Below are positions 7,682 to 59,800 of a stretch of DNA of 64,000 bases, in pieces. How positions within the stretch are numbered: the first letter of the stretch is position 1; the number at the start of each line of letters is the position of its first letter. The DNA comes from Adenophora triphylla var. japonica (lineage: Eukaryota; Streptophyta; Magnoliopsida; Asterales; Campanulaceae). Both the position numbers and the translations under genes were made by a program. Below the pieces are notes generated by a model that worked only from the letters and a program-made list of their open reading frames with translations, searched no databases and was not told where the DNA came from. The stretch is taken from positions 403,762 through 467,761 of the forward strand of contig JAFEMH010001480.1 of the NCBI GenBank assembly GCA_022495995.1. Reading direction: 5' to 3'.

Positions 7682-8068
7682 TGTAAGTACCCAAATCTGG
7701 CTCATACCTTCCAGTTAAAGTTTTCTGGCAGTTCCCCAAACTTTCATAAAGTTTAGGGGCAATTCGAAAACTTTTCCAAACTTTCCAAGGAAGGAAGGAC
7801 CTATTAGGAATTAGAATTCTAAACAGGACCTTGCTGGAAAGAAGCTTCCAAGTTGCCACCTTGCATGAATCTAGAAACATGCTGACGCGACGGTGGATAA
7901 CGCCGGGCGGCTTCATTTGCCAAGATATCTCGCCGAGCGGCTTCGTTAGAAGCACACCAGATGCCTATAAATAGAGGCCTCCTCTATTCATTTTGATATA
8001 CAATTTTAGGCACTGTTACTCTGTCAAAATAGCTCCTCAAATTTACAGTCCCAAAAATCACACAAAAC
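7682..8068 (+). mobile_element. Tat-type LTR copy 1, left part
   Basis: It starts TGTAAGTACCC after the PPT. GCCGGGCGGC (7902) and GCCGAGCGGC (7932) are 30 bp apart, and the TATA box CTATAAATAG lies at 7965-7974. The sequence matches 17749-18134 closely. It is cut at 8068 by TR-GAG-1, and the matching sequence resumes at 16463; the intact copy at 18115-18145 shows the uninterrupted site. Confidence 0.75.
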
Positions 8069-9153: not shown

Positions 9154-9504
9154 GAGCCCCTCGTCGACAAGTCTTATGGAAGAAGTCATGTCGACGATAG
9201 AAAAGACATCACTCTGAACATCGGGATGGTCGGGCCGTACGACTTCCTACGTATCTCTATCGAAGAATCAGACCATAATGTAGTTCGACTCCAAAACACG
9301 AAAAGGCTGCTTTAGATATTTTGAAAATCAAGGAGATTTTGTTTTTGAAAAGGTAAATTCGTACTGAGGAATCAAATCATGACCCAATTCTGAATATACC
9401 TGTCTGTCTGAAGATTCGCCTGTTTGAGCTCCGAACCTGCGGGGAAAGATGTTAGAAAATAAAGGTTTACATGTCCGGTCCTTTGCATTCGAACGATTTG
9501 TCTT

Positions 9505-10475: not shown

Positions 10476-11214
10476 AATATGCTTGACACATGGCACTTGA
10501 CGTGATGGATGCTTGACGCGATGGATGCGTAACGCTCTTAAGAGATGCTCGACGCGCTTAATTGGATGCATTGGTAAGTGAAATCCAAACACTCAACATG
10601 TTTGATCTAATTCTTGAAAGTAGGCACTTGACGTGCTTTACGCACATTAATTCCTGCAAGAGGGTTAGTGAAAGCATTTGCATAACAACATATATTCACT
10701 TAAGAATTTGTTTGTTCAAGACGATTAATGTGCACTCGACTCCAAGAATCAGCAGGGAGAATGAGTTCTATTATGTGAGAATTGAGAATCGTTTGTGTGA
10801 TTTAGATTTTGGTTTTAGAAAACTAACTCGTGAGGTCCATCTAAATATCGAATGAGACAGTCGCCTAATAGAATTCCGTTGAGATAACCCAAGTTCAACA
10901 CTAAGGTTCAGGATGCTTCGAGGATTTTTTGTTGTCGTAGGACTTTTCCATCGCCAAGCCCCCTAAGTTTTTTTCATGTGATGATCATTGACTGAACAAG
11001 GTTCAAACCACTCTAATGGCTTTCACTATGTAGAACTTATGCTGCCTAATCCAAAGCATGCATTTTCCAAGGCTTTTCTTGACACTAAGCCAAGACTTCT
11101 TGTATGCTGCAGATGACTTCGCGAACATGCTTGTGAGGCTGTGTAAATTGAAGAAGGATGCCCTCCTTTTTCCCTTTGAATTTTATTTTCTTAGTGACGC
11201 ACCCTGGTTTTTAC

Positions 11215-12023
11215 CTAGACCGCCCTTTCGGGTTTTCAATCTAGCGGGCATCTCTTTTGCGTCTTTTATTTTTGTGCTCTAACTTTTGCCTAGGTCGCTC
11301 TTTACGAGTTTTCAACCTAGCAAGCCATTTTTTTTCGAAAAGTATGTTTACTCGAAGGGGACTCAGTTGGAAGAATCTCATTAAGGAGAAAGATGAGATC
11401 TCAAGTTTAGTTGAGGAGAGACGGACTCTATTTTTTGAAAGGTGATCCAAGCATTGACTCTTTTTGGGGGAGTATATTCTCTAATGATAAGAGTAAGAAG
11501 CAAAAAGGAAAGCTCCTAATGCAGATTTGATTCTCTTGGGAATTTAAGTAGAGATTGACTGGGAGAGGAAAGGTTAGGAAGCCCCAGTTTTGATGCTTGG
11601 ATTTCAAGATTGTGCATGAGAGCGGCTAACAGGAAGCCCCTAAACTCAACAAGAAACGCTATTTGGCTTATAAATCTAGAAAAGTTATTCTACCTTTAAT
11701 GGACCTTGCATCATCTAGAAATTTCTTAACGAGTTTGAAAGAGAAAGCCAATCATTAGTACGACTTAAGGCTAAACATTTTTCTTTATAGATGGATGTTG
11801 AAAGTCTTCTTCATTTGCGCTGCTTATTTAGGCTTCATTGTAAGAGGATGTTGAGGGATCCTCTTTTCTTTGTTGGTATCTCTTGACTCTTTTTCTTTGT
11901 GGGAGAGTCCTTCTTGCCTTTGTTGAAATCCCATCTTTGTTGTGGGGTGATGAAGGCTTTGAGAGTTTTTTTTTTTGATGCTCTAATTTTTTGCCTAGGA
12001 CGATTTGAGGAGTTTCGACCTAG
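11215..12023 (-). repeat. Three homologous hairpins in TR-GAG-1 3' UTR
   Basis: Hairpins at 11215-11244, 11290-11320 and 11995-12023 share a frame, on the minus strand CTAG-R, GAAAAC(T/C)C, YCTAGGCAAAAA. The outer stem is CTAGA/TCTAG in the first and CTAGGT/ACCTAG in the second, which is compensatory. TR-GAG-2 has two relatives, at 46988-47017 and 47695-47724. Conservation in otherwise fast-changing sequence suggests an RNA structure. Confidence 0.5.
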
Positions 12024-12493
12024 CGAGATTTTTGTTTTAATTTGTACTCTCAAAGCCTCGAATTGAGTAGCCCCACTCTTCTTGGGATGAATGTTGATAG
12101 CACTGCCTTTGGCTTCCTTCATTTGTTGATCTTCGACTTTCAACAGGAGTAATGTTTAGCCTTAGGCCTTCTAATGATAGTTTTCATTTCAAACTTGTTT
12201 AGAAGTTTCTATTTTCGTGATGATTTAAGGAATGAGGGTCCACTATTCAGCATGGATCAAATGATAACCATAAAGAAAAACAACTTTTGGGAAAGTGTTT
12301 AGGATAAAGAGATAACTTTTATTGATAAGAAAATTTGAAACAGACTCGATAGTTCACTTGGCACAAACTAGAGAGGATAGAGATGGACTAGAATGACAGA
12401 ACGACTCTTCGAGAACAAACTAGGAAGCTGCCCTAATCTATTTTTTTAAAAGAAAAAAGGAGAGGACAATCGGAGCCCCAAGGTGGTGATGCT

Positions 12494-13731
12494 TCAGTTG
12501 ATCTTGTCGGCTTCATACAAGTCTTGGATGGCGTCCCTCAAATTATAGCAATTGTTGGTGTCATGACCACTAAACTGATGGTAATCGCAAAATTTGTTGT
12601 GGTCCCAATCTTCTCTCATTTTCTTAGGATGATAGTCTTCCATTGGCTTCAATTTTCCTTGGCCTACTAGATCATCGAACATTTCCTTAAGAGTAGTCTC
12701 ACCAAAATCATGATAGGTACGGCCGGTGCTCCCCTTTGTTGGATAAGTCTCCTTTTCTGAATTCTTTTTAAGACGGATCAATTCATCAATTCTAATGCCC
12801 GATTTATGGAGTTCGAGAAAACTAAGGAAGTAATTACCGACAAGCTTCTCTTGGTACTCTTCGCGGAGACATTGAAGTAGGATATGAATTTGTTCGTCTA
12901 GGCTTGGCCTATCAACGATTTCAGTCAGTTTGGTCCTCCATCTTTTGACAAAATCGGCGAATGACTCCTTTTGTTGTTGCTTAGTTTGCTCAAGGTCTCT
13001 CCTAGTAGTGCGGTAGGTAGTGTTGTCCTCAAACTGTTCTTGGAAGGCATGACTGGCAAGTGGCCAATCAAGCCTTGTGGAGAGTGGAAGGGTCATGTAC
13101 CAATCTCTAGCGGCACCATCAAGGGTTTGAGGGAAGCATTAAACTAGCAAGTTGTCATCGACACCCATAGGTAGCATGGCCCAAGAGTAAATTTCCAAGT
13201 GGGATTTTGGACAAGTAGTGCCATTGAATTTTGCAATGTCGGGTGTCTTGTACTTTCTAGGAAGCTTTGACATGGATTGACGAAGGGTGTCATAGTCGAT
13301 AGAGAGCGAGGCTTCCTTGCTCACATCGATGGATGCAAGTTTCTTTTCTAGCATTTCCCTGGTGAGGGGCTCACTTGCTTTTCTGTTTCCCCCTTACTTT
13401 CCTTCTTGAAAGTTTGGCTTTCGTTATCGGAGGAGGAAGATGATGAGCTAGACTCATACACCTTTTTCTTGTGCTTGTGGTGGCTTTTAACCTTCTTGGT
13501 GTATGATACTTCATCATCGGAAGAGGTCCTACTTTCTTTCTTCTTTGAGCTTAATTCGGCCACTTTTAGTTTCATGGCTCGGAGTTCATCAACCATGGCT
13601 TTCATTTCCCTGGTTTGGATTCTCCTTTCAAGTTCTAATCGGGCCTCCATTTCATCAGTTTGGGCTTGTAGCATTTCTTCATATCGAGTCCTTTGATCCT
13701 CAAGTTCCTTCTTGAGTGCTTCAGGATTCAT
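12494..13731 (-). pseudogene. gag: TR-GAG-1 gag
   Basis: The start is ATG at 13731, after the CGACACG context shared with TR-GAG-2. The N-terminal part is a coiled-coil-like, Glu/Lys-rich segment, then a Ser/Asp-rich run (13480-13400). A frameshift near 13360 leads into LEKKLASID and the retrotransposon gag domain (YKTPDIAKFNGTTCP, GAARDWYM, DLEQTKQQQKESFADFVKRW). The C-terminal metal-binding motif is FCDYHQFSGHDTNNC, the form usual in Tat/Ogre-type gag. An in-frame TAA at 13141-13139 replaces a Gln codon before CFPQT. About 410 codons remain recognisable. One frameshift and one stop make it inactive as it stands. Confidence 0.85.
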
Positions 13732-13989
13732 CGTGTCGAAAAGAAATTGAGTTGCTACCGTTGGAGAGGTAAGGGAGCTTGACGATCTTAGAGATGAACT
13801 AGAGATATTCCAACGAAACGACTTTTAGAATATTAGCCCCAAACGATCCTAGATGGATAAAAGGATGATGGTTAAAATTACCTTACGAGCGATTTTTTTT
13901 TGAAGTTTTATTTTTATTAGAGAGGGAGTTTTGACTCAAGGAGGGAGCGCACATCGATTATCAATCACAAACACAAATTCTGCAAAAAA

Positions 13990-14023
13990 GTCTCGCGCGA
14001 GACAAGGTAGTCTCGCACATGAC
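13990..14023. promoter_or_regulatory. Palindrome pair upstream of TR-GAG-1 gag
   Basis: GTCTCGCGCGAGAC (13990-14003) and GTCTCGCACATGAC (14010-14023) are 20 bp start to start. They lie about 260 bp upstream of the gag ATG in the leader. The equivalent site in TR-GAG-2 is at 44941-44973. Confidence 0.5.
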
Positions 14024-15182
14024 AACCATTCGGAGAGATTGATTTTTTTTCTTTTTATTTCCTAAATTCATGGTCGGACAAACAAAGATCCGTTTTCTAT
14101 CTAGTATCCTAGGTAAATCTTACAGGTATACGTAATTCGAACCAAACCTAGGGACTCAGTAATTGACCATTCTTTGTAAAATAAAGCCATGTAAAATCAT
14201 TTTTCAAGAAGGATTTTTTTTCTTTAAAGGGTCTTCCGAAAGGGTCATTCCGAAGGGACATTTCCGAAGGGACTTTTTCTTTTTTCGAAGGGACTTTTCC
14301 GAATCCTTTCTCGATAGTCAATTTTATATTAGCTTTATTTTGGTCAAAGACAAGAAAGATTACCAAGTCAAAACTGACCGGTCACGGAGTGTTCTTAAAT
14401 AGACAATCTACATGATATGTGGCGATGCAGGGCTGGAAGGCTAGGCTCCCCGCGATATGACAATCTAGGTGGATTTAATACGCGGAGTGGGATGATCCAA
14501 CTTTGGAGAGACCGGCGACTAGGTGGTTACCGTCATCCGTCCTTAGTGTGGGTCCCGGGTTTATCAAGGGTATGTAGTGCAATGACAGATATAATATGAG
14601 TGCGCGTGTGTGATAGTCCATCTACGTGATAGAGAAAAATAGAGATTTTTTTTTTAAAATTAAAAGAATACAGATAGTGGCCGCACCAATAGGTTGCCTA
14701 TGTTTCTCCCAAATTCGGAAGACTCAGGCCGTCATAGTTCCAAATAAAGAAGAGAGAGAGAATTAAATTAATTACAAACCCCGAGTCAAACATTGACCGG
14801 TAAAAATTAAAATAACCCAATCTCACGCAAGTATATAGTTCAAGTAATTAATAATTACTTCTATACTGCAAAATAAAGTTAATATGAGCAAAATAGAAAT
14901 AACATTTATTTGATTTTTTTGGGATTTTTTTTTGAAGTTTTCTGAAACTGATTTTTTTTTGACACCAGTCAACTTACAGAAAAGTCAACACTTTTATTTT
15001 TAAATTTCATTTTGCACAGTCGCAAAGTTTAGTAAGAAAAGAATTTTTTTTTTAATTTATGGTCAAACGTGGAAGAGAAGTTGGCATATTACATTGTGGT
15101 CCAACTTTGACCAACTAAACCCTTTTTTTCTTTTAATGCGCCGCCAAAGGAAAGAATTATTTGTTTTGAAAACCGTATACTA

Positions 15183-15216
15183 GTTTCGCGCGGGACAACT
15201 TTGTCCCGCGCTTGAC
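15183..15216. promoter_or_regulatory. Palindrome pair downstream of TR-GAG-1 PBS
   Basis: GTTTCGCGCGGGAC (15183-15196) and GTCCCGCGCTTGAC (15203-15216) are again 20 bp apart, about 140 nt past the PBS in the leader. TR-GAG-2 has the matching pair at 43763-43796 with 20-bp spacing but altered bases. Confidence 0.5.
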
Positions 15217-15355
15217 AAGCATTTGCACAGTAATTTTTTTGACAAAAACAGTGCAGAAAAATTCCAAAAAATTCAGAAAAAATCAAATTTCAAACAGAAA
15301 ATTAAAAAGATTAATAACACCCAATTGTAACGCAAATCTAACCCTCTTATTTAAT

Positions 15356-15375
15356 TGTCCCCAGCGGAGTCGCCA
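15356..15375 (-). promoter_or_regulatory. TR-GAG-1 primer binding site
   Basis: On the minus strand, one base after the 5' LTR end, lies TGGCGACTCCGCTGGGGACA. It begins TGG as expected for a tRNA 3'-CCA end, and it is identical to the site in TR-GAG-2 at 43611-43630. Ogre-type elements are known to use a tRNA-Arg primer with a very similar site; the tRNA assignment here is by that resemblance. Confidence 0.75.
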
Positions 15376-15376
15376 C

Positions 15377-16462
15377 TGTAGCGATGCGTGAATTTTTAAC
15401 ATCTCAGAGTCGCCACTTATTATTTATTGATGGAAAACAATAAGAAAAACCTTTTTGATATTTTCAAGAGATTCAAGGGTTCGGGGGTTAAGTTATGGAA
15501 TGGGTAGGTCAAGGAGCATCCATTCCACCCAATCCGAAGATCGGTCTTGCTAATTGGGTGTTATTAATTTAATCAATCTATGAACAATAAAAAGAAATAA
15601 ATAAACCCTAATTAATTTATTAATTAAAAATGTCGGATTGTATGCTTCGAGATCGCCTTCATGAATTGAAGGGACTCTAGGCTAATCCTTTTGATGGGAT
15701 TACACTACTCTAAAATCAATAGAGAGATTGAGAAGAGAAACGAAAGTTTAAAGGATGATTACCTTTTGTTTGAGAAGGGATTCGGACGGAGTTTCGACTC
15801 AATCCTAGGTTCGAATCTTGATGCGGACAGAGCTTCGCCTCAATCCTTGATTCAGATCTTGATGCGGATAGAGCTTCGCCTCAATCCTTGATTCGGACTT
15901 TGATGTTTGTTGACCAACAAGGTTGATAAATAAACTTTAAATGATTTAGGGTGATTTTGTAGGAATCTTTATGGGAGAGAAACCCACAAAATGTGTGTGT
16001 TATGTGTTTTCGATCGGGGATAGGGGACCTCTAAAATACTGAAAGTCATCAAGTATTTATAGGGGTTTAAGAGGTGGATGCATGACTTGGTCACCAAGTT
16101 TAGGAGACTCAAGTGGATTGGGACTCCTCCCAAGGAAGCTTCCAGAACCCTCTCATGATTGGATACCCGGATTGGATGATATTTATCAAGAAAAGAGTTT
16201 GAAACAAAGAATGAAAGTGATTCTGCACATCCTGCTGAGGGATTGTCTCGCGCGAGACACGTATGTCCCGTGCGGGACAACTAGTTATTTGACCATTTTG
16301 ACCTCTTCAGTTATTCCGTTAGTCAGTTAGGTCCCAAAACTAACGAGGTTAGTTGGAAACTTAACAAAACGTGATGAAACTGATGTGCTTTCATCAAAAC
16401 ACAAAAGAGAGATGAAGAGTAGTGTAATCATGAATTTATTGGTTCAGAATGGGGTGTCTACA
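15377..16462 (-). repeat. TR-GAG-1 5' LTR
   Basis: 1086 bp, transcribed leftwards. The palindrome pair is GTCTCGCGCGAGAC (16245-16258) and GTCCCGTGCGGGAC (16265-16278), and the TATA box CTATAAATA is at 16062-16054. The adjacent PBS shows this is the 5' copy. Confidence 0.9.
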
Positions 16463-17611
16463 AAAACCCTCCTCTCTCATACACTAATCCTACCTTAATC
16501 TATTCCTAAATAGATATTGCCTAGGAAAATCTCCTTGGGAGATAGAGAAAAACCAATATTGGCAAACTCTCCTTCCTTTACCTTTGATTTACTCCTATTT
16601 TCTCTTGTTCTTTTTATTACTTGTCATTTATTTACATTTATTATTATAAAGCTTTAATCTTTGTAATGTAATCATCATATTTCCCTCTCCCCTTTCACAA
16701 ATGATTAATTGGTGATTCTCTCCCTAGGATGAACAAGGTTCCACAAGTGGCTTGTTCTAGGGAATATCTACCATATGATGATGTGATTTCCCTTTACTTT
16801 TACGTATAAAAATGCAATATTTATTCATATTATGTCATCCCCTTCCCTTGATCTAGCTTTCCAAGGATTGTCCACCTTATGAGGTCTTAAGGACATAGGA
16901 AAAGCCATAAAGATCATCCCCTTTACATTATGTCTTTAGTTTAATGATACTCATTGTATTGTTCATATTAAAAATGCAATCTTTACTTTAAAGTTATTAC
17001 CCCCATGTCCCTAAAGATGGATCTTTTTCTCCAAGAATTGTCTAAAAGCCTTCTAAGGCACAAAAGGACATATGATGAGCATAAAAATCCAATCTTTATA
17101 TCCCATTCCCCTAGTCCCATGGTTATTGGTGCATTCCATGGTGAGGGTCGGTGTAAAGACTCCATCTTTACATCGTTTCCATCATAAAAATGCCACAATC
17201 TTCCCTTTAGAAACCGATGAGTCTTGGTCCCGAAATATTCGATAATCACTTGAGACGAACATAAAAATATCCCTACGAATCATTATCATCTCAAGATGTA
17301 GGATCGATGGACAAAGATTCATTCTTTTGTAAAGAGTCTCATTCTTGAACTTAAAGACGAGTCCCTTTTGATCACATGTGACTAAATCCCTAAGGAATGT
17401 TAGTTTAAGACATACCAGGGATCCTATTAGGCCTATGATAGTTGATTAATCTAATGGGAGGATAGATAAGTCCCGTCGTGATGATCACAAGTCCAAAGTG
17501 AGCACGGGATCAAAATCCTGTAAACATCAAATCCAAGGTATCCCGAGTTAAAACCTTCTTAAATGGTTTTTATATCCAGCAGATAAACTTGGCACATCAC
17601 TTTCTCTTTTC
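16463..17611 (+). mobile_element. Tat-type LTR copy 1, right part
   Basis: It continues the LTR interrupted at 8068 and repeats 18135-19277 almost base for base. It contains degenerate internal repeats built on AAAAATGCAATCTTTA and CCCCATGTCCCTAAAGATGG. It ends at CTTTCTCTTTTCA, where a pre-LTR segment (17612) follows directly, so the LTR's 3' end and the whole element interior are missing. Confidence 0.7.
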
Positions 17612-17748
17612 AGGTAGCCTTTCAAAGGTTCAGCCACTCGACCTCCTTGGTCACCCAATCCCAATCCATCTCGGCAGCTCGCCAGATTGGATTCTCACTT
17701 TTATCGACAACCCCACTTTCTTTGCAAGTACTATTGCCGAGGGGCTTC
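17612..17748 (+). other. Pre-LTR segment and PPT between tandem LTRs
   Basis: Nearly repeats 7545-7681: GGTAGCC, TTTTATCGACAACCCCAC, then the purine tract GCCGAGGGGCTTC directly before the LTR at 17749. This is all that is left of the interior between LTR copy 1 and copy 2. Confidence 0.6.
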
Positions 17749-19560
17749 TGTAAGTACCCAAATCTAGCTCATGCCTTCCAGTTAAAGTTTCTGGCAGTTC
17801 CCCAAACTTTCATAAAGTCTAGGGGCAATTTGAAAACTTTTCCAAACTTTCCAAGGGAGGAATGACCTATTAGGAATTAGAATTCTAAACAGGACCTCGC
17901 TGGAAAGAAGCTTCCAAGCTGCCACCTTGCATGAATCTAGAAACATATTGACGCGACGGTGGATAACGCCGGGCGGCTTCATTTGCCAAGAGATCTCGTC
18001 GGGCGGCTTCATTAGAAGCACACCAGATGCCTATAAATAGAGGCCTCCTCTATTCATTTTGATATACAATTTTAGGCACTGTTACTCTATCAAAATAGCT
18101 CCTCGAATTTACAGTCCCAAAAATCACACAAAACCCTCCTCTCTCATACACTAATCCTACTTTAATCTATTCATAAATAGATATTGCCTAGGAAAATCCC
18201 CTTGGGAGATAGAGAAAAACGAATATTGGCAAACTCTCCTCCATTTACCCTTGATTTACTCCTATTTTCTCTTGTTCTATTTATTACTTGTCATTTATTT
18301 ACATTTATTATTATAAAGCTTTAATCTTTGCAATGTAATCATCATATTTCCCTCTCCCCTTTCACAAATGATTCATTGGAGATTCTATCCCTAAGATGAA
18401 CAAGGTTCCACAAGTGGCTTGTTCTAGGGAAGATCTACCATATGATGATGTGATTTCCCTTTACTTTTACGTATAAAAATGCAATCTTTATTCATATTAT
18501 GTCATCCTCTTCCCTTGATATATCTTTCCAAGGATTGTCCACCTTATGAGATCTTAAGGACATAGGAAAAGCCATAAAGATCATCCCCTTTACATTATGT
18601 CTTTAGTTTAATGATACTCATTGTATTGTTCATATTAAAAATGCAATCTTTACTTTAAAGTTATTACCCCCATGTCCCTAAAGATGGATCTTTTTCTCCA
18701 AGAATTGTCTAAAAGCCTTCTAAGGCACAAAGGACATAGGATGAGCATAAAAATCCAATCTTTATATCCCATTCCCCTAGTCCCGTGGTTCTTGGTGCAG
18801 TCCATGGTGAGGATCGGTGTAAAGACTCCATCTTTACATCATTTCCATCATAAAAATGCCACAATCCTTGTCCCTTTAGAAACCGATGAGTCTTGGTCCC
18901 GAAATCTCCGATAATCACTTGAGACGAACATAAAAATATCCCTACGAATCATTATCGTCTCAAGATGTAGGATCGATGGACAAAGATTCATTCTTTTCTA
19001 AAGAGTCTCATTCTTGGACTTAAAGACGAGCCCCTTTTGATCACATGTGACTAAATCCCTAAGGAATGTTAGTTTAAGACATACCAAGGCTCCTACGCCT
19101 ATGATAATTGATTAATCTAACGGGAGGGTAGATAAGTCCCGTCATGATGATCACAAGTCCAAAGTGAGCACGGGATCAAAATCCCGAAACCATCAAATCT
19201 AAGGTATCCCGAGCTAAAACCTTCTTAAATGGTTTTTATATCCGGCAGATAAACTTGGCACATCCCTTTCTCTTTTCAAATCATGCATGCACACAAGCAC
19301 ACAAACAAGCACAAACTTCGGATCTAGGAAGACTTGCTTTTTGCAAGGCTCCTTGCGTGAACGCCAAACGTTCTTCCCAAGAAGTAACTTAACCCCCGAA
19401 CCCTTATCCTTTTTTTTTCAATGTTTTGAGGAAATCAAAATGGCATGAAGACTCTGTTTTTTCATAAAACCGGTATCTTCAAACTGAGGTGAACGGCGAT
19501 CCTTTTTTCGAAAAAAGAAAACGTTCCGGGGCCACATTCACACACCCGAATCAATTCAAC
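17749..19560 (+). mobile_element. Tat-type LTR copy 2
   Basis: It starts TGTAAGTACCC. GCCGGGCGGC (17968) and GTCGGGCGGC (17998) are 30 bp apart, and the TATA box CTATAAATAG is at 18031-18040. It runs past the point where copy 1 is cut and includes TAACTTAACCCCCGAACCC near 19388, a sequence also seen close to the end of TR-GAG LTRs. The right border is approximate; sequence beyond about 19560 belongs to the E2 gene intron. Confidence 0.65.
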
Positions 19561-35306: not shown

Positions 35307-36570
35307 TGTTAGGAAAATTATGACGAAAATTCGAAAAGACTTTCTTTTGAAAATAACTGAAAATAACAAAAACGGGAAAATAAATAAAAATCGGAAAAAA
35401 TGAAATAAACCGAAATACAGAAAGTCGAGGCTTGTGTTAGACACAATCTCCGTAAGAAGCAATTGCCTCGCACTGGTGCTAATGGTAATTGACAATCTTC
35501 TCGTAAGATGCAACGACTTTAACTGTCATTAATAGGAGCACTCCAAATTAACGGCTTCGGCGAACAAATCTAAGTATTTGGAACTTCTGGACTTGAAAAG
35601 AATTTTATGCTTCAATATGCTCTACTAGGCTATTGGATATTTGATGGCTGAATGAATGAATGAAATTGTCAAACCAGGGGGGCTATTTATAGTTAATGAA
35701 GAGTTAGGGTGCCTCTTTGGAATAACCACTATTGGCACCCGGTGGAATTCCAGCCGTCGGATTAAATCAGATTGTAGGGAGGAGATCTGCTGGAGCAACC
35801 CAGCCATCCGACCCGCCCATTCGAAGAGGCGCGGGTCGTGCCTTATCCGATCCATGGCTGCTCGAATGGGCACGGACCAAGTTCAGTGAACCTGACCTTC
35901 CCATACAGCGCCCTAATCTTAATCGGGCCTAGGCCCATGCCACCGGCCCACTACCAACTAGATTGGCCAAGTCGAACCACCATGCACACCTGGACTGAAC
36001 CAAGCCCAAGCCGCCCGAACCGAACCACTTAGCCTCGGCCTGGACCGCCATCGAACCTAACTTCGTCAAAAGTTTAAGGCTCCACAGCTCCCAGCGACCG
36101 ATGCGTACGTGCGCAGTGCAAAGTGTGTGCCTCAAAGCGCCCATTGCGACCTTCGCGGGCTTCGCGCACTTCGCGGGTGTGGTCCAAATTGAGCTAGTGT
36201 AAAACTGGCACAATTGGGCTACTCCTTGCATGGTTTGCCCAATGATCCACCTAGGTTGACCCAAGGAGGAACAACTTGATGCCTCCTCCTTATTTGCATC
36301 CACTTATAAACTTGCTTTACTTTTCATCTCTAAGCAATGTGGGATAACTTTTTCATATCCCATAAACTCTTCATTTTCCCATTTCAAGTTACAATCTTTA
36401 GCCATTAATTTCTCATTCACCCGGAAATGGTTTTGAGTTAATAAATGCATTTTCTTAATCTACAACAAATTTAGATATAATTTTGTAACTTATTTCATTT
36501 AACAATAAATGAAACCCATTTGAAAATTAGGTCAAAAATTGGTCATAGTTTCTAAAACCCATTTCCAACA
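35307..36570 (-). repeat. Copia A 3' LTR
   Basis: 1264 bp. The minus-strand TATA box CTATAAATAG is at about 35693-35684. The GC-rich segment around 36090-36180 holds GCGAAG/CGCGGG runs with an extra repeat compared with the other LTR. Confidence 0.85.
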
Positions 36571-37086
36571 ATTCCCCACATGAATGACAATTAATGTATG
36601 TATGTAAATATGTCCAAAAGTTCCGGCGAACTACTATTGCATCAGGATAGGTAGCTTATGGCTTTGAACCTTTCCTAGTGAAATACTATCGGATATACTA
36701 GCCATTCAGTAGCGCGATGCTTTGAACTGGTGACTGTATAGTGTATACCAAGATAACAGTACTCCCACAATAATAGCTCTAACACTATTTGTTCTCACGT
36801 TGTGTCCATTTCGGCCCTGGACCGTATCTCATTCATAAGTGTTCCAATGTAGAAGCGGCCTTATTACTTCTCACTTATATAGGTGATTCATACTATAAAG
36901 AGTATCCTGCTATACTCCACCCGTAGGTATAGGAATCATTAAAATTTTTCTCAACTTATCCTCACCACTGCTGCAGGTGCACATACTTGGATGTTCTGGG
37001 AATGAGTATAAAAGAGGTTCCAAGTGTTTCTACTGAACTCATAACTTAGTTTTCTCATTGAACCAAGGACCTGGGATCTCCATTTC

Positions 37087-37271
37087 TCAAGGTTGAGTGT
37101 CCACTGTAAGTTCTTTTGTTGTGGGTTTTAAACCCATTCTCCTTAACAGTTTATACAGTTGATCTCTATTTATACCTTTCGTAAACGGATCCGCTATGTT
37201 ATCATTTGACTTTACATAGTCAATTGTGATAACACCATTTTTGATCAACTGTCTAATGGTATTATGTCTAT

Positions 37272-37303
<32 letters not shown>

Positions 37304-38699
37304 CTGCTCTGTGCCCTTCCTATTGCTGATTGACTATTACAATGTATCATAACAGCAGGCACATGCTTACTCCAACAATATCCTCCAAGAAGTTCTTTAG
37401 TCATTCTTCTTCTTCTCCAGCTTTATCTAAAGCTATAAACTCTAATTCCATCGTGGATCTAGTTATACACGTTTGTGTGGAGGATTTCCATGATACCGCT
37501 CCTCCACCAATGGTGAATACATACCCACTTGTGGATTTAGAGTATTTTGTATCTGATATCCAATTAGAATCACAGTATCCTTCTAATACTGCTGGATATC
37601 TCTTATAAAGTATCCCATGATTCATTGTATACTTTAAATATCTCAATACCCTTAATAGGGCCTTCCAGTAATCCGCACTCGGATTACTAGTGAACCTACT
37701 TAGTTTGCTCACTGAATATGCGATGTCTGGACGTGTACAATTCGTTAAGTACATCAGACTACCAATTATTCTGGCATATTCCAACTGAGAAATTGGTTCC
37801 CTTCTGTTCTTTGCTAAGTGTAGAGTCAAATCTACCGGTGTCTTAGCCGGAGGATCATTAATGACATCGAACTTTCGAAGTACATTTTCTAGATAATGGG
37901 ACTGTGACAGAACTATTCCTTCTGATGTTCTAGAAATCTTTATTCCTAATATAACATCAGCTAGTCCCATGTCTTTCATGTCAAAGTGCTTCTTTAACAT
38001 GCCTTTAGTATTCATGATCAGTTCATGAGTACTTCCCATTATCAACATGTCGTCTACGTAAAGACAAACAATTACAAATGATTCAGATGTTCCTTTGACG
38101 TAGACACACTTGTCACATTCATTTATCTTGAATCCAATTGACAACATAGTTCGGTCAAACTTTTCATGTCATTGCTTAGGTGCTTGTTTTAGTCCATACA
38201 ACGACTTAACAAGTTTACACACCTTTTGTTCTTTACCTGGAACAATGAACCCTTCGGGTTGTTCCATATAAATCTCTTCATCTAGCTCTCCATTCAAGAA
38301 AGCTGTTTTCACATCCATTTGGTGTATCTCAAGATTATGCACGGCTGCAATTGCTATAAGAACACGTATGGATGTGATCCTTGTGACAGGAGAATATGTA
38401 TCGAAGAAGTCATATCCTTCCTTTTGTCTGAACCCTTTAGCAACTAGCCGGGCTTTGTACTTATCGATAGATCCATCTGCCTTATACTTCCTTTTAAGGA
38501 TCCATTTGCAACCCAACAGTTTGCATCCTGGAGGGAGATCAACCAACTCCCAAGTATTATTATGCATTATGGACTCTATTTCACTGTTAATAGCTTCTTT
38601 TCCATTCGGACTATCCGGACTGGATAAAGCTTCTTTAATAGTAGCTGGTTCATTTTCTAACATATATGATTGAAAATCAGGACCAAAAGACTTTTCCAC
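37087..38699 (-). pseudogene. Copia A reverse transcriptase and RNase H
   Basis: Read leftwards: VEKSFGPDFQSYM, NTWELVDLPPGCKLLGCKWI, KARLVAKGFRQKEG and MDVKTAFLNGELDEEIYMEQ, to a TGA replacing the Trp of APKQW near 38168. The catalytic [12 protein letters not shown] is intact, and the RT end and RNase H follow ([31 protein letters not shown]). A frameshift at about 37403 separates the last part ([33 protein letters not shown]). One stop and one frameshift are the visible lesions. Confidence 0.85.
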
Positions 38700-38738
38700 T
38701 CTTGCCCTCTTACTACGTCTAGATCCTTCATCTTCTTC

Positions 38739-39654
38739 TCAAGATGGACTATTTGTAGCTTCATAAGTTCTCTTATTAGAACTTGTATCTTTCCTATTCT
38801 TAGCAGGAAAGATATTTTCAAAGAATGACGCATTTCTAGATTCTATCGTCATTCCTTCATTCATATCAGGAATGTCCGACTTGTGCACTATAAATCGATA
38901 GGCGCAACTATTGCTGGCGTATCTAATAAAGATGCAGTCAACCATCTTGGGACCTATCTTTACTTGCTTTGGCTTAGGTACCTCAACCTTAGCTAGACAC
39001 CCCCACACTTTAAGGTATTTATAACACGACTTAAGATTATTCCATAATTTGTAAGGAGTCTTATCAATTCCTTTCTTGGATATCTTATTAAGAATGTAGT
39101 TGGATGTGAGTATGGCTTCCCCCTCACAAGTTATCGGGTAAGCCTGAACTGATTAACAGTGCATTCATCATCTCCTTAAGAGTACGATTTTTGCGTTCAG
39201 CTACTCTGTTAGACTGAGGTGTATATGGTTCTGTCGTTTGATGAATAATGCCAGATTTCCAGAATAATCCTTCAAACGTAGCGACATATTCTCCTCCTCT
39301 ATCGCTTCGAATCTTCTTAATCTTTACATTAAGTTGATTCTCAACTTCATTCTTATAAGTTTGGAAAGCCATTATTGCTTCATCCTTACTTCTCAAGAGA
39401 TATACATAGCAATATTTAGTGCAATCATCTATAAAAGTAATGAATTACCTTTTCCCACCTCGAGTTATCACTAACTTTAGATCACAAATATCTGTGTGAA
39501 CTAACTCAAGAGGTGTTGTGTTTCTTGTCACCGAAGAAAATGATGACTTAGTCATTTTCGCTTCAACGCAAATTTCACACTTGTCAGTTGAATCGAATTT
39601 ATTCTTAGAAATTAATTCTTGACTCACAAACTTCTTAATTGTGTTGTAATTCAC
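38739..39654 (-). pseudogene. Copia A integrase
   Basis: The zinc-binding Cys pair CEICVEAKM is intact (compare the mutated copia B). There follow [15 protein letters not shown], a stop after a short gap, the core KIRSDRGGEYVA and YTPQSNRVAERKNRTLKEM. A one-base deletion lies near 39125, and the C-terminal WGCLAKVEVPKPKQVKIGPK region is in the next frame. The end of the frame at 38739 is a TGA before EEDEG. Confidence 0.8.
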
Positions 39655-39672
39655 GTGACCTAATCTATCATG

Positions 39673-40614
39673 TCATAGATTAGGACTATCCAACAGGTAG
39701 ACATAAGAAACAAACTTTTCATTATTCGCTTCAAAGCGGAAAATATTTCTTACATTCATTTTGAACAGGCCCTTTTCAAGGTACCCATTTCCAAGAAACA
39801 TATCATTCTTGGTCAATACAAAGTTTTCTAACTCAAACACTAGTCTAAATCCAGCCATGCTCAATAGCGATCTGGAAACCAGGTTCTTGCGAATGTCTGG
39901 GACTTGCAGCACATCCTTAAGAGTTAGCTCTTTGCCTGAAGACATCTTCAGTATAACCTTTCCAAGTCCCATGACGTTAGAAGTGACACCGTTTTCCATA
40001 CACACCTTCTCTCCACTGATAGGAGTGAATGACAAAAAGTAAAATCTATCAGCACATATGTGGTGGGTAGCTCCAGTGTCTATCCACCATTTATTACTGG
40101 TGTCTTCGAAATTTGATAAGGTGGCTTCAAAGGTTTCACACACCATTGCTTCTAAATCAAGCCCATTCAGCCTTTCAATAATGGTGGCTTGATTTCTGGA
40201 GTCGGTCTCTTGAATCTTGTAAACCCGTTCCAATGAGTTCCACAACTCCTTGGCTGTCTCCACGAAATAGTACTCCTTGTATAGGGCTTTACTTAGCCCA
40301 CTCAATATGTACATTTTACATATAAGATTTCCATGATTCCATGCCTCTGTGGCTATCCATCCTTGCGGATCTGAATCATCATCCCGACTAGCGGGGATAC
40401 CTTTTTCAACGAACATCTTCAAATCGAGGTTGATTATGAGGTACAACATCTCTTGTTGCCAGCTTTTGAAGTCCGCACCTCCGAACTTCGTTGTTTTCTT
40501 GCCAAGTGATGGATAATTCTGAACCGGAGCGGTCACAACAATCTGGCTCGTTGCATTTGTCTGATGAGGGTGGATAACCCCGAACAACTAAGAGGTTTTT
40601 TTTCCAGTCGACAT
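39673..40614 (-). pseudogene. Copia A gag-protease, internally deleted
   Basis: ATG at 40614-40612 (MSTGKKTS) is followed by a stop, then the same frame continues. The gag N-terminus (KTTKFGGADFKSWQQEMLYL, WNSLERVYKIQE) runs straight into SNKWWIDTGATHHICAD of the protease. About 150 codons present in copia B are missing, including the rest of gag and the zinc knuckle. The protease active site DTGA is intact. The start is only 33 nt after the LTR. Confidence 0.8.
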
Positions 40615-40631
40615 TTTCTTAAGAAAACGTA

Positions 40632-40645
40632 AATTACTTCTTACG
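40632..40645 (-). promoter_or_regulatory. Copia A PBS-position sequence complementary to its own U5
   Basis: On the minus strand, AT and then CGTAAGAAGTAATT follow the 5' LTR end directly. This 14-mer is the exact reverse complement of AATTACTTCTTACG in the same LTR (minus strand, 40805-40792). There is no TGG-initial tRNA site in the 33-nt leader. The homologous pairing in copia B differs at three positions, with compensation. A primer or structural role is inferred. Confidence 0.55.
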
Positions 40646-40647
40646 AT

Positions 40648-41908
40648 TGTTAGGAAAATTATGACGGAAATTCGAAAAGACTTTCTTTTGGAAATAACTG
40701 AAAATAACAAAATCGGGGAAATAAATAAAAATCGAAAAAAATGAATTAAACTGGAATGCAGAGAGTCGAGGCTTGTGTTAGACACAATCTCCGTAAGAAG
40801 TAATTGACCCGCACTGGTTCTAATTGTAATTGACAATCTTCTCGTAAGATGCAACGACTTTAACTGTCGTTAATAGGAGCACTCCAAATTAACGACTTCG
40901 GCGAACAAATCTATGTATTTGGAACTTCTGGACTTGAAAGGAATTTTATGCTTCAATATGCTCTACTAGGCTATTGGATATTTAATGGCTGAATGAATGA
41001 ATGAAATTGTATAACCAGGGGGGCTATTTATAGTTAATGAAGAGTTAGGGTGCCTCTTTGGAATAACCACTATTGGCATCCGGTGGAATCCCAGCCGTCG
41101 GATTAGATCAGATTGTAGGGAGGAGGTCTGCTAGAGCAACCCAGCCATCCGACCCACCCATTCGAAGAGGCGCGGGTCGTGCCTTATCTGATCCATGACT
41201 GCTTGAATGGGCACGGACCAAGTTCAGTGAACATGACCTTCCCATACAGCACCCTAATCCTAATCGGGCCTAGGCCCATTCCACCGGCCTACTACCAACT
41301 GGATTGGCCAAGTCGAACCATCATGCACACCTGGACTGAACCAAGCCCAAGCCGCCCGAACCGAACCACTTAGCCTCGGCCTGGACCGCCATCGAACCTA
41401 ACATCGTCAAAAGTTTAAGGCTCCACAGCTCCCAGCGACCGATGCGTACGTGCGAAGTGCAAAGTGTGCGCCTCAAAGCGCCCATTGCGACCTTCGCGGG
41501 CTTCACGGGTGTGGTCCAAATTGATCTAGTGTAAAACCGACACAATTGGGCTACTCCTTGCATGGTTGGCCCAATGATCCACCTAGGTTGGCCCAAGGAG
41601 GAACAACTTGATGCCTCCTCCTTATTTGCATCCACTTATAAACTTGCTTTATTTTTCTTCTCTAAGCAATGTGGGATAACTATTTCATATCCCATAAACT
41701 CTTTATTTTCCCATTTCAAGTTACAATCTTTAGCCATTAATTTCTCATTCACCCCAGAAATGGTATTAAGTAAATAAATGCATTTTCTTAATCTACAACA
41801 AATGTATATTATAATTTTGTAACTTATTTCATTTAACAATAAATGAAACCCATTTGAAAGCTGGGTCAAAACTTGGTCAAACCTAGTTTCTAAAACCCAT
41901 TTCCAACA
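40648..41908 (-). repeat. Copia A 5' LTR
   Basis: 1261 bp, closely similar to 35307-36570. The minus-strand TATA box CTATAAATAG lies near 41033-41024. The U5 segment complementary to the leader is at 40805-40792. Confidence 0.85.
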
Positions 41909-53523: not shown

Positions 53524-54367
53524 TGTTGGAAATGGGTAACAAAAGTTAAAATTTGACTTAACGTTGACCTAACTTCCTAACGGAATTCGTTAAATAGTTA
53601 ACGAAGCAAGTTACAAAATGTATTCTACATTTAGTGTGGATTATGAAGCTCATTTATTGTCTCAAAGCCATTTCCGGGTGAATGAGAAATTAATGACAAA
53701 GGTTTGTAACTTAACGAGAGTTATTTAAAGGGTTTTTGAAGTGGTTTGATGTGCACGGCCGAGCAGAGCATAGGAAATTGACCAAGTCTCTGGACAATCT
53801 TGCACGGCCGAGCAGAGTCCTTGACTCGGCCGAGCAGTGTGATTGACACGGCCGTGCGAGTTACTTGACTCGGCCGTCCAGCTTGGTGCTCGGCCGAGCG
53901 AGTCCCTTGACTCGGCCGAGTAGATCCTGAACAGTCACCAATTCAAACAGAAAAGTTGTGTCTTTTCGTGGGAAAAGGCACAAACCCCTTAACTCTCTTT
54001 ATATACTTCCCCTCCGAATTTCAATTACACATATACTGATTTTGAGTCTTCCTAAACCCTCTTGAGTTAGTTTAATCAAATCATTTCATTTGCATCTTGT
54101 TGCATACCTCCTTCAAGTCCAAAGTTTCAAACCTTGTGTTGTTCGTTAGAACAATCAATTTGGAGTGCTCCTATTGATTGTTTATAAAGTCGTTTTATCT
54201 TACGAGAGTTTTGTCATTCAACCGTAAGCACCTGTGCGGGACAAATAACTCTTACGGAGATTGTATTCAATACAAGACTCGACTTGTCTCCTAGTTTTCC
54301 AATCTCCGTTAAATTTTCTGTCAGTTTTTCAGTTAAGTTCTTGAGAAGCCATACCAAAAGTCCAACA
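53524..54367 (+). repeat. Copia B 5' LTR
   Basis: TGTTGGAAATGG through AAAAGTCCAACA. Contains the CTCGGCCGAG array (53754-53923), TATA TTTATATA at 53998-54005, and U5 segment CAAATAACTCTTACG at 54242-54256, complementary to the leader. Confidence 0.9.
53754..53923. promoter_or_regulatory. Phased CTCGGCCGAG palindrome array
   Basis: Seven copies of (C)(T/A)CGGCC(G)(A/T)GC-type sites start at 53754, 53803, 53825, 53847, 53869, 53889 and 53911. Spacings in the main block are 22, 22, 22, 20 and 22 bp. The TATA box lies 75 bp downstream. In the 3' LTR one further 22-bp unit is present (near 59175), so the array changes by whole units. Confidence 0.6.
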
Positions 54368-54369
54368 AT

Positions 54370-54384
54370 CGTAAGAGTTATTTG
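54370..54384 (+). promoter_or_regulatory. Copia B PBS-position sequence complementary to its own U5
   Basis: CGTAAGAGTTATTTG begins 2 nt after the 5' LTR. It is the exact reverse complement of CAAATAACTCTTACG at 54242-54256 in U5 (repeated at 59675-59689). The leader is only 40 nt long and has no TGG-initial site. An 8-nt site TCTTACGA earlier in U5 (about 54198) also pairs with the same leader bases. Confidence 0.6.
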
Positions 54385-54407
54385 ACGCTTCTTCAGACCT
54401 TCAAGAG

Positions 54408-57400
54408 ATGGCAACTGAGAAAGACACCACCGCATCAAGTCAAGGCAATGTAACGCCTCCTACTCAAGGTGACGCAACGTTCAACAATGTTGCACCCGCT
54501 CATACACCGCATCACCCTGGTCATGGTGAGAAACCCCCGAAGTTCACTGGTGTGGATTTCAAGAGATGGCAACAAAAGATGCTATTCTACTTGACCACCC
54601 TAAGCTTGCACCGCTTCTTAAAGGAAGATCCTCCGGCGGTGGCAAATGGTGATCCCGACCCTCAAAGGCAAATGGCCAAGGAGGCTTGGGCTCATGGTAA
54701 TTTTTTGTGTAAGAATTGCATCCTAAACGGACTCGACGATGCACTCTACAATGTGTATAGTAACGTCGAGATAGCCAAGGCGTTGTGGGACACCTTGGAA
54801 AGGAAGTACAAGATCGAAGACCCCAGGTCAAAGAAATTTGTCGTCGGTAAGTATCTTGACTTCATGATGGTCGATTCCAAATCGGTAACAACTCAAGTGG
54901 ATGAGTTCCAACTCATTCTACATGGGCTTGATGCCGAGGGGATGATCATGAATGATCCATTCAAGGTGGCCTCAATCATTGAAAAGTTACCACCTTCATG
55001 GAAGGACTTCAAGAACTATCTCAAGCATAAACGCAAGGAGATGTCCATGGAATACATAGTTGTTCGTCTACAAATTGAAGAGAACAATAGAAACAACGAG
55101 GCCAAGGAGGCTAAGGGCAAGATGGAGGCTAAGGTCAATCTCGCCGTGGCTAGCACAAGTGGCACAAAGAGAAAGCATTCCGGAAATGACGGGAATGCTA
55201 AGAAAGGAAAGAATAAGGGCTCTAAGAAGTTCAAGGGGTCTTGCTATAATTGTGGCAAACCGGGCCACTTAGCAAAGGACTGTCGTCTCCCAAAGAAAGA
55301 GGCGAATAATGTTGACCACATGGACCTAGACTTTGCAGCGGTAGTGTTCGAGGCTAACGTTGCAAACTTGGATGGTAATCCAAAAGCTTGGTGGATAGAT
55401 ACCGGTGCTACCCGCCACATTTGTGCTAATAAGGAGAGTTTCTCCTCCTATACTCCCATCTCCGGAAGGAAGCTCTACATGGGAAATTCCGAGACCTCCG
55501 ATGTTCAAGGCATTGGAAACGTGATATTGAAGATGACTTTCGGAAAAGAAGTAACCTTGTTGGATGTGCTGCATGTTCCAGACATCCGTAAAAAATTAGT
55601 TTCTGGCGCTTTGCTTAGTAAGGCCAGATTTAGACTTATATTTGAATGTGACAAATTTGTAATAACCAAGAATGGTTTGCTCCTTGGAAAGGGATACCTC
55701 GAGGAGGGCCTTTTCAAGATGAATGTAATGAATATTGTCCTCCATAGTGCGAAAAATAAAAGCATTGTTTCTTATGTTTACTTGTCAGAAAGTTCTAATT
55801 TATGGCATGATAGATTAGGACATCTAAACCTCGACACCATTAAGAAATTAGTGAGACAAGATTTAATCCATATGACTAAATCCGACTCGACTAATAGGTA
55901 CGAAGTTTGCATTGAGGCAAAAATGACGAAATCGCCATTTAATGCAATAGAAAGAAACACAACTCCTCTCGAGTTAATTCACACCGACATATATGATTTA
56001 AAACTTGTGTAAACTCGAGGAGGTAATAAGTACTTCATTACATTTATAGATGATTGCACAAAGTACTGCTATGTTTATCTCTTAAGAAGTAAAGATGAAG
56101 CCTTAGGGGCTTTTGAGACTTATAAGAAAGAAGTTGAAAATCAACTTAACTTGAAGATTAAGAAAATTAGAAGCGATAGAGGTGGAGAATATGAAGCACC
56201 GTTTGAAGGATTATGTTGGGAATCCGGCATAATTCATCAAACAATGGCTCCATATACCCCTCAATCTAACGGAGTTGCTGAACGCAAAAACCGTACTCTC
56301 AAGGAGATGATGAACGCGCTTTTGATAAGTTCAGGCTTACCCGACAACTTGTGGGGGGAAGCAATACTCACTTCTAATTATGTTCTTAATAAAATACCAA
56401 AGAAAGGTATTGATAAAACACCCTATGAATTGTGGCATAATCGTAGGCCATGTTATAAATACCTTAAAGTGTGGGGGTGTTTGGCCAAGGTTGAAGTACC
56501 TAAGCCGAAACAAGTCAAGATTGGTCCAAAGACCATTGACTGTGTTTTCATTGGATATGCCAATAATAGTAGTGCCTATCGGTTTATAGTACACAAATCG
56601 GACATTCCTGATATGCATATAGGAACTACTATAGAATCAAGGAATACGGTATTATTTGAAAACATCTTTCCGGCTAAGGACATGAAAGATATAGGTTCTA
56701 ATAAGAGAACATATGAGTCTACAACCGGTCCTTCTCAAATAGAAGATGAATAATAGAGACGTAGCAAAAGGGCAAGAGTGGAAAAGTCTTTTGGTCCTGA
56801 TTTTATATCTTACATGTTAGAAAATGAACCAGCCACTGTTAAAGAAGCTTTATCCGGTCCGGATAGTTCGTTCTGGAAAGCGGCTATTAACAGTGAAATA
56901 GAATCCATAATACTCAACAATACTTGGGAATTAGTTGATCTCCCTCCAGGTGGCAAACCACTAGGTTGCAAATGGATCCTTAAAAGGAAGTATAAGGCGG
57001 ATGGATCAATCGATAAATACAAAGCTAGGCTAGTTGCCAAAGGCTTTAGACAGAAAGAGGGATATGATTTCTTCGATACATACTCCCCTATCACAAGGAT
57101 CACATCTATTCATGTTCTCATAGCTATTGCAGCAGTGCATAATCTTGAGATACACCAAATGGATGTGAAGACTGCTTTCCTAAATGGAGAACTTGATGAA
57201 GAAATTTACATGGAACAACCCGAAGGGTTCGTAGTTCCTAGTAAAGAAAGAAAGGTGTGTAAACTCGTAAAGTCCTTATATGGACTAAAATAAGCACCTA
57301 AACAATGGCATGAGAAGTTCGATAGAACCATGTTATCGAATGGATTCAAGATTAACGAATGTGACAAATGTGTCTACATTAAAGGAACATCTGAATCATT

Positions 57401-58394
57401 TGTTATCGTTTTCCTTTATCTAGACGATATGCTCATAATGGGAAGTAGTCATGATTTGATCATGAACACCAAAGGCATGTTAAAGAAGAATTTTGACATG
57501 AAAGACATGGGATTAGCTGATGTAATATTAGGGATAAAGATCTCTAGAACATCTGAAGGATTAGTTCTTTCACAATCCCATTACCTAGAGAATGTTCTTC
57601 GGAAATTCAATGTCTTTGATGACCCTCCGGCTAAGACACCGGTAGACTTGGGTCTACATTTAGCCAAGAACAAAGGGGAACCAGTTTCTCAACTGGAAAA
57701 TGCAAGAATAATTGGTAGTCTGATGTACTTAACGAATTGTACACGTCCGGACATTGCATATTCAGTGAGCAAACTAAGTAGGTTCACAAGTAATCCGAGT
57801 ACTGATCATTGGAAAGCACTAATGAGAGTACTAAGATATTTAAGGTATACATTAAACCATGGGATACTTTACAAGAAATATCCAGCAGTATTAGAAGGAT
57901 ACTGTGATGCCAATTGGATATCGGACACGAAAGACTCTAAGTCCACGAGTGGATATGTATTCACAATAGGTGGAGGAGCAGTGTCATGGAAATCTTCCAA
58001 ACAGACATGTATAGCCAGATCCACGATGGAGTCTGAGTTTATAGCTTTAGATAAAGCTGGGGAAGAAGCAGAATGGCTTAAGAACTTCCTGGAGGATATT
58101 CCTTGTTGGAGCAAACCTGTGCCTGCTGTACTAATACATTGTGATAGTCAATCAGCAATTGGAAGGGCACAAAATAGTATGTACAATGGTAAGTCTAGAC
58201 ATATTCGTTGTAAACACAATACCATTAGACAGTTGATCAAGAATGGCGTTATCACTATTGATTATGTAAATTCATGTGATAACTTAGCGAATCCGTTTAC
58301 CAAAGGTATAAATCGAGATCAACTGTATAAACTGTTAAGGGGAATGGGTTTAAAACCCACAACAAAAGGACTTATAGCGGACACTCAACCTTGA
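54408..58394 (+). pseudogene. Copia B gag-pol, single frame with in-frame stops
   Basis: 1329 codons in one frame from ATG 54408 (MATEKDTTASSQ). Gag: PKFTGVDFKRWQQKMLFYL. CCHC knuckle at residues 279-292 (CYNCGKPGHLAKDC). Protease WWIDTGAT with Asp at residue 331. Pre-integrase WHDRLGH, where the first zinc Cys is Tyr (YEVC; copia A has CEIC). Integrase core KIRSDRGGEYEA. RT MDVKTAFLNGEL, with catalytic YVDD changed to YLDD near 57418. RNase H to 58394 (NPFTKGIN). Stops are TAA at 56010-56012, TAA-TAG at 56751-56756 and TAA at 57291-57293. No frameshift despite this length. The element cannot make a full polyprotein without suppression. Confidence 0.9.
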
Positions 58395-58934
58395 GAAATG
58401 GAGATCCTAGGCCCTTGGTTTAATGAGACAACCAAGTTATAAGTTCTAGTAGAGTTACTTGGAAACAACAACTCGGTTTATTAACCTGGAGATGTTGAAT
58501 ACTCATTCCCAGAACATCCAAGTACAAGCACATGTAGCAGTGGTAAGGATAAGTTGAGAAAACTTTTAATGATTTCTATACCTACGGGTAGAGTAGTGCA
58601 TGATACTCCTTATAGTGAGAATCACCTATATAAGCGAGAGGTAATTTGGCAGCCTCTAAATGAATGCTTATGAATGAGATACGTTCCAGGGCCGAAAAGG
58701 ACAAAACGTGAGAACAACAATTGTTAGAGCTGTTATTATGTGAGTATTATTGTCTTGGTATACATCCGACAGTCACTGGTTCAAAGCGACTCACTACCAA
58801 ATGGCTAGTATATCCGATAATATTTCACTAGGGAGGATTCAAGGCCACAAGCTATCTATCCCGATGTAATAATAGTTTGCCGGAACTTTGGACGAAATTG
58901 CATTCATGCATTAATTGTCATTCATGTGGGGGAT

Positions 58935-59800
58935 TGTTGGAAATGGGTAACGAAAGTTAAAATTTGACTTAACGTTGACCTAACTTCCTAACGGAATTCG
59001 TTAAATAGTTAACGAAGCAAGTTACAAAATGTATTCTACATTTAGTGTGGATTATGAAGCTCATTTATTGTCTCAAAGCCATTTCCGGGTGAATGAGAAA
59101 TTAATGACAAAGGTTTGTAACTTAACGAGAGTTATTTAAAGGGTTTTTGAAGTGGTTTGATGTGCACGGCCGAGCAGAGTCCTTGACTCGGCCGAGCAGA
59201 GCATAGGAAATTGACCAAGTATCTGGACAATCTTGCACGGCCGAGCAGAGTCCTTGACTCGGCCGAGCAGTGTGATTGACACGGCCGTGCGAGTTACTTG
59301 ACTCGGTCGTGCAGCTTGGTGCTCGGCCGAGCGAGTCCCTTGACTCGGCCAAGCAGATCCTGAATAATCACCAATTCAAACAGAAAAGTTGTGTCTTTTC
59401 ATGGGAAAAGGCACAAACCCCTTAACTCTCTTTATATACTTCCCCTCCGAATTTCAATTACACATATACTGATTTTGAGTCTTCCTAAACCCTCTTGAGT
59501 TAGTTTAATCAAATCATTTCATTTGCATCTTGTTTCATACCTCCTTCAAGTCCAAAGTTTCAAACCTTGTGTTGTTCGTTAGAACAATCAATTTGGAGTG
59601 CTCCTATTGATTGTTTATAAAGTCGTTTTATCTTACGAAAGTTTTGTCATTCAACCGTAAGCACCTGTGCGGGACAAATAACTCTTACGGAGATTGTATT
59701 CAATACAAGACTCGACTTGTCTCCTAGTTTTCCAATCTCCGTTAAATTTTCTGTCAGTTTTTCACTTAAGTTCTTGAGAAGCCATACCAAAAGTCCAACA
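58935..59800 (+). repeat. Copia B 3' LTR
   Basis: 866 bp, preceded by PPT GTGGGGGAT. Same features as the 5' copy plus one extra 22-bp palindrome unit. Confidence 0.9.

Follow-up and report, generated by a model that had tools for sequence, protein, structure and literature searches.

The window analysed here, a stretch of 64,000 nucleotides from Adenophora triphylla var. japonica, contains the retrotransposon Copia B at positions 53524-59800 (+). The element is flanked on both sides by the TSD GTGGG, and the TSD together with the 3' LTR at 58935-59800 places the end of the 5' LTR at 54367, as the first-pass annotation of this DNA had it. The two LTRs are 96% identical (blastn) and differ by 12 substitutions and 22 gapped columns, all gaps being in one place. 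This 22-nt difference lies at the start of a CGGCCG region (53755); by eye, seven CGGCCG motifs, mostly in the form CGGCCGAG, lie in the U3 at 53754-53921. The coding region of the window copy is split over four ORFs of at least 100 aa, with matches to Retrotran_gag_2, gag_pre-integrs and RVT_2 on separate pieces. Having copia gag and RT domains, TG..CA LTRs and a 5-bp TSD, Copia B is a Ty1/copia LTR retrotransposon. It does not belong to Ty3/gypsy, the superfamily of the Tf1/sushi self-primers, since its domains are of the copia type. The coordinates of the features are collected in Table 1.

Table 1. Features of Copia B, its predicted R/U5 RNA domain and element A (window coordinates).
Feature	Position	Strand	Remarks
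5' LTR, Copia B	53524..54367	+	844 bp, TGTTGG...CCAACA ends, TSD GTGGG
Hairpin 1	54151..54181	+	covarying stem around invariant TTGGAGTGCTCC
Closing stem, 5' strand AGUCG	54188..54192	+	partner 54280-54284
Upstream arm of primer hairpin	54204..54215	+	partner 54240-54253
Putative self-primer, 14 nt, Copia B U5	54243..54256	+	pairing reaches 54242 in window copy
Last three primer nt	54254..54256	+	in internal loop (AC/ACG) of primer hairpin
Hairpin 3, directly past primer	54262..54274	+	one pair with changes on both sides
Closing stem, 3' strand CGACU	54280..54284	+	alignment folding
Putative self-primer binding site (PBS), Copia B	54370..54383	+	2 nt past LTR; pairing reaches 54384 in window copy
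First gag-pol reading frame, Copia B	54408..56012	+	copia gag, zinc knuckle, Pol beta-barrel, pre-integrase matches
3' LTR, Copia B	58935..59800	+	866 bp; primer site copy at 59675-59689
5' LTR, element A	40648..41908	-	TSD GATGG
3' LTR, element A	35307..36570	-	
Putative self-primer, element A, AATTACTTCTTACG	40792..40805	-	
Putative self-primer binding site, element A, CGTAAGAAGTAATT	40632..40645	-	

The RT piece of Copia B gave 3953 protein matches at E <= 1e-20; none of the 120 listed carries a lineage label, and among the named matches listed, proteins of Sesamum and Rehmannia had the top identities (at most 80%). A scan of IMG/VR with the RT piece yielded no relative, and a 16-nt motif gave seven exact matches in this collection (L001-L007), which we take for chance. 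Within the element, TCAAGAGATGGCAAC is repeated exactly at 54401-54415, across the gag start codon, and at 54559-54573 within gag, where it codes for FKRWQQ; the repeat may have come from chance, duplication or template switching. Elsewhere in the window, at 7545-19278, three abutting pairs of long direct repeats, about 95% alike, resemble nested or rearranged elements.

The leader of Copia B, which comprises the 40 nt from the LTR end to the ATG at 54408, contains no TGG, in agreement with the first-pass statement that a TGG-initial tRNA site is missing before gag. At the position of the primer site we find CGTAAGAGTTATTTG, which occurs only once in the window (54370-54384) and starts 2 nt past the 5' LTR. 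Its complement, CAAATAACTCTTACG, is found at 54242 in U5 (54242-54256) and at 59675 in the 3' LTR. The perfect complementarity of CGTAAGAGTTATTTG to U5 over 15 nt, as originally read, was thus confirmed. Likewise, the ordinary TGGTATC site which had been noted at other elements of the window is present past three LTRs (21410+, 22794+, 31947-). However, the lack of a tRNA site, described as specific to Copia B, turned out to be shared by a second element of the same type. This element A (35307-41908, -), found by blastn of the Copia B LTR against the window, has aligned LTR parts of 73-79% identity to those of Copia B. TGG is absent from the first 40 nt of its leader as well; the leader starts with ATCGTAAGAAGTAATTT, and 14 nt of it pair with the element's own U5. 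The polypurine-tract region CATTAATTGTCATTCATGTGGGG (58909-58931, +, in Copia B and 36574-36596, -, in element A) is identical over 23 nt in the two elements, although their aligned LTR parts are merely 73-79% alike.

The match between U5 and leader was assessed against 2000 dinucleotide shuffles of each LTR, and for each shuffle we recorded the length of the best match that begins 0-5 nt into the leader. The maximum reached was 11 nt for Copia B, against 15 nt observed, and 12 nt for element A, against 14 nt observed. Matches of at least 10 nt, the published cut-off, appeared in 11/2000 shuffles of Copia B and 5/2000 of element A. Comparison of the two elements showed that three U5 primer positions differ between them and that the PBS has the matching change at all three (3/3), while a fourth PBS difference, at position 15, is accompanied by no matching change in U5. 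The probability that three random changes give at least 14/15 matches was 3.35e-4, as determined by simulation (200,000 trials).

Copies of these elements were then sought in the 2.48-Gb assembly which holds the window. For family B (341-base query) we scored the best 40 of 4015 candidates and for family A (301-base query) the best 40 of 2225. Family C was reached via a pattern search and is represented by the best 40 of 3266 candidates and by L088 from the pattern search itself (n=41). L008 and L048, which repeat the elements of the window itself, were excluded before the counts. A perfect 14/14 match between U5 and PBS was found in 84 of the 121 copies of the three families, a share that is biased upwards, as the scored copies are the most query-like ones and the queries span both the primer and the PBS. 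Perfect copies made up 35/40 in family B, where the other five had 13 matches, and 31/41 in family C, with nine copies at 13 and one at 11. In family A, 18/40 copies were perfect; 14 had 13 matches, three had 12, two had 11, two had 10, and L080, which has no PBS, had 5. Five of the scored family A copies fall in a stretch of about 162 kb on a single contig (C524), with more hairpin-motif hits between them.

The first-pass annotation had proposed a covariation check on genomic copies, and here U5 and PBS indeed change together between families A, B and C. The PBSs of the three families differ pairwise at one to three positions, each tracking its own U5. Family C (primer AAATACTTCTTACG, PBS CGTAAGAAGTATTT) adds a new combination at the same three variable positions, paired again, and no new position. 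Out of 14, the mean number of matches with the own-family primer was 12.89 in A, 13.88 in B and 13.71 in C, in comparison to 10.46-12.49 with the primer of another family. Variation between the families is confined to three primer positions, and the number of independent double changes is thus small. In nearly all copies of families A, B and C the conserved stretch starts 2 nt past the LTR, and no TGG was found in the first 15 leader nt among the 80 A and B copies. When PBS positions 1-14 were compared with the next 20 leader positions (L080 being excluded solely from this count), the cells departing from the majority amounted to 0.5% vs 7.1% in family B and 0.9% vs 5.4% in family C. In family A, however, the PBS showed no stronger conservation than the leader positions that follow it (3.9% vs 3.0%). 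Pair 15 is formed in 32/40 B, 0/40 A and 23/41 C copies, and its U5 side is nearly always C. The match appears effectively to stop at nucleotide 14, and we infer a primer length of 14 nt.

A search with the hairpin motif gave 329 hits and none in the control, and two further types, D and E, were noted among the matches listed. Type D has one informative 5' LTR copy, L143, which matches at 13/14 positions (by eye); the base change in its PBS instead gives rise to a match of 10 nt in the region of the upstream arm (by eye). The other type D copies, L141 and L142, have no PBS after them and are therefore uninformative on pairing. Type E is represented by the single copy L144 (12/14), whose PBS, by eye, fits a C-type primer, while its own U5 differs; decay of the copy, recombination or a genuine exception could account for this. 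L143, L144 and the 22/40 imperfect copies of family A are among the points that speak against self-priming. The pattern search for other PBS types, which by design is blind to a PBS with A as its seventh base, gave 14 hits vs 12 in the control, and 3/14 were of the self-complementary kind.

Alignment folding of the four LTRs in the window predicted an RNA domain at 54151-54284, composed of hairpin 1, a closing stem, the primer hairpin and hairpin 3. In a second fold of 15 rows, which cover all five types and were hand-picked from about 125 copies, the alignment energy was -33.8 kcal/mol vs -6.5 (sd 2.5, lowest -14.1) in 100 column shuffles, and this figure, like the following ones on covariation, holds for those rows only. 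Changes on both sides were seen at 8/9 outer stem pairs of hairpin 1, with one non-pairing row at three of these, and at 5/12 pairs of the primer hairpin, where 4/12 pairs have one non-pairing row each. In the junction, both sides are changed at a single pair. The closing stem is nearly invariant and thus gains little support from covariation. A search of 53900-54450 against Rfam gave a single weak match, far below the family cut-off.

According to these models, the primer is predicted to have two mutually exclusive partners, the upstream arm and the PBS, which would compete for it. In the single-sequence fold of Copia B with its leader, the lowest-energy form has the primer on the PBS (z -3.26, 0/100 shuffles as good). 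For a 254-nt piece of Copia B, the calculated probability of primer-PBS pairing was about 0.4, and barring all PBS pairing cost about 8 kcal/mol, which means that the PBS has further possible partners. The fold of element A likewise pairs the primer with the PBS, with a z of just -1.41 and 8/100 shuffles as good.

Copia B is very probably one of a set of plant Ty1/copia elements which start reverse transcription from a piece of their own RNA. Self-priming is well supported because of the matched changes among three families in one genome. The distance from the start of the TATA-like box to the 3' end of the primer is 240 nt in element A and 256 nt in Copia B, which would place the primer inside the predicted transcript and not at its 5' end. 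The first-pass annotation had raised this position as a caveat, rightly so, as it is unlike that of Tf1. TATAAA at 54183 was considered as a nearer promoter and rejected, since A and C do not have it.

The following course of events can be proposed. The primer strand would quit its hairpin partner and then pair with the PBS, and the RNA would be cut after 54256, by analogy with the action of RNase H in Tf1. The new 3' end would then copy 54369 back to 54257, giving a strong-stop DNA of 113 nt. Strand transfer to the 3' LTR would require R to reach, and the poly(A) site to lie, beyond the copy of the primer in that LTR, unless another RNA of the particle served instead. In other elements, plus-strand synthesis copies the end of the tRNA. 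Here, it would copy the primer, and the PBS would be rewritten from U5 in each round. Such rewriting would account for the covariation as well as for the limit at 14 nt. If plus-strand synthesis does copy the primer, the covariation is a trace of primer use; selection on pairing alone is another possible source of it. A more elaborate model, which we offer tentatively and regard as slightly more apt to fail than to hold, is that the R/U5 RNA acts as a built-in primer device. The three-hairpin domain would hold the 14-nt primer on the upstream arm with its 3' end in a loop, the PBS would displace the arm and thus allow priming, and arm, primer and PBS would co-evolve, the PBS being rewritten in each round.

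The pairing between U5 and PBS by itself would equally fit a structural stem without priming. The match could be such a stem only, like the U5-leader stems of retroviruses, while another RNA, e.g., an internal tRNA fragment, serves as the primer. Stems of the U5-IR type near the primer site are indeed known in retroviruses and Tf1 (titles cited in PMC7175516 and PMC4600332), and half-tRNA primers are listed for Bianca, Osser, Bryco and Gymco-II in PMC6317226. However, TGG is lacking in the B and A leaders and in the beginnings of those of the 80 copies, the match sits exactly where a primer must be, and a fixed host tRNA would not explain why the PBSs of three families each track their own U5. 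ARAGORN found no tRNA gene within the window. The first-pass annotation had treated a U5-leader stem with a tRNA-fragment primer as equally possible; given the matched changes among the three families, we consider it less likely than self-priming, and the structural-stem explanation as a whole unlikely.

The pairing might also regulate some other process, such as dimerisation, packaging or gag translation, with neither partner priming directly. The R/U5 domain covaries well past the primer and so has further functions, and just 24 nt separate the end of the Copia B PBS from the gag ATG. This explanation, however, would mean that the element has no recognised primer site at all, and it has to contend with a conserved stretch that, in nearly every copy of families A, B and C, starts 2 nt past the LTR; we judge it to be even less likely than the structural stem. 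As for chance or mere shared descent, short matches do occur, as the shuffles showed, but the length of the match, its position and the matched double changes in separate families contradict such an origin, which we regard as highly improbable.

Self-priming is thus the preferred reading, and its relation to known systems has to be considered. Neumann et al. 2019 (PMC6317226) predicted self-priming for 12% of the surveyed elements; within Ty1/copia, the prediction concerns the TAR lineage. Self-priming had been proposed before for Houba and Osr-1, as these authors note. In this paper, self-priming in plants is recognised by a complement of the 5' LTR that is no shorter than 10 bp and starts 0-5 bp past it. 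Measured by this self-priming criterion of the TAR lineage (REXdb), Copia B has 15 bp at offset 2 and element A has 14 bp, and the priming type suggests that Copia B is a member of TAR. Like Copia B, the elements of this lineage (Houba, Osr-1, Fourf) are of the copia superfamily and have no tRNA site and a PBS complementary to the interior of the 5' LTR; PMC6317226 describes their self-primer as freed when the 5' LTR of the transcript is cleaved. In contrast to the present analysis, no RNA structure, primer length or covariation is given in the available text of that paper. Self-priming in plant copia elements is thus already predicted in the literature and not new. The first-pass annotation had considered it as something it was not aware of in plant copia elements; the self-priming part gains support from the matched changes, while the novelty is lost to the TAR prediction.

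RNase H cleavage in Tf1 takes place between bases 11 and 12, and the 11 bases before the cut are those that pair with the PBS (PMC7175516). According to the available text of PMC7175516 and PMC4600332, the Tf1/sushi elements (Tf1, Tj1) resemble Copia B in that their own RNA primes, the PBS complementarity is short and RNA structures permit the pairing. They differ in being of the gypsy superfamily and in using the 5' end of the mRNA as the primer, whereas the putative primer of Copia B would lie about 200 nt inside the predicted transcript, is 14 nt long and leaves a 2-nt gap to the LTR. Bianca, Osser, Bryco and Gymco-II are, as described in PMC6317226, also copia elements without a site for a complete tRNA, but with a PBS that fits a half-molecule tRNA, for which no tracking of U5 is expected. 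The fungal GalEa copia elements likewise have no recognisable tRNA site and show a conserved hairpin instead; their palindrome, however, extends over the final base of the 5' LTR, and the authors report in the available text that no U5 complement was found (PMC5445492). In the available text of PMC5445492, PMC3601003, PMC7175516, PMC4600332 and PMC2864245, no R/U5 domain such as the present one is described. Among the titles and abstract openings listed in searches of an open-access library, none describes a covarying R/U5 domain or a primer length for such elements.

As far as the available text goes, self-priming of plant copia elements has so far been a prediction from a sequence match. The three families with matched double changes and the 14-nt limit firm up this prediction and give a testable model of the cut site and primer length. 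The covarying R/U5 domain offers a means to annotate such elements and to address the question of how the middle of an RNA can give rise to a primer. If the primer-device model is true, plant copia elements would possess an RNA switch which controls an internal self-primer.
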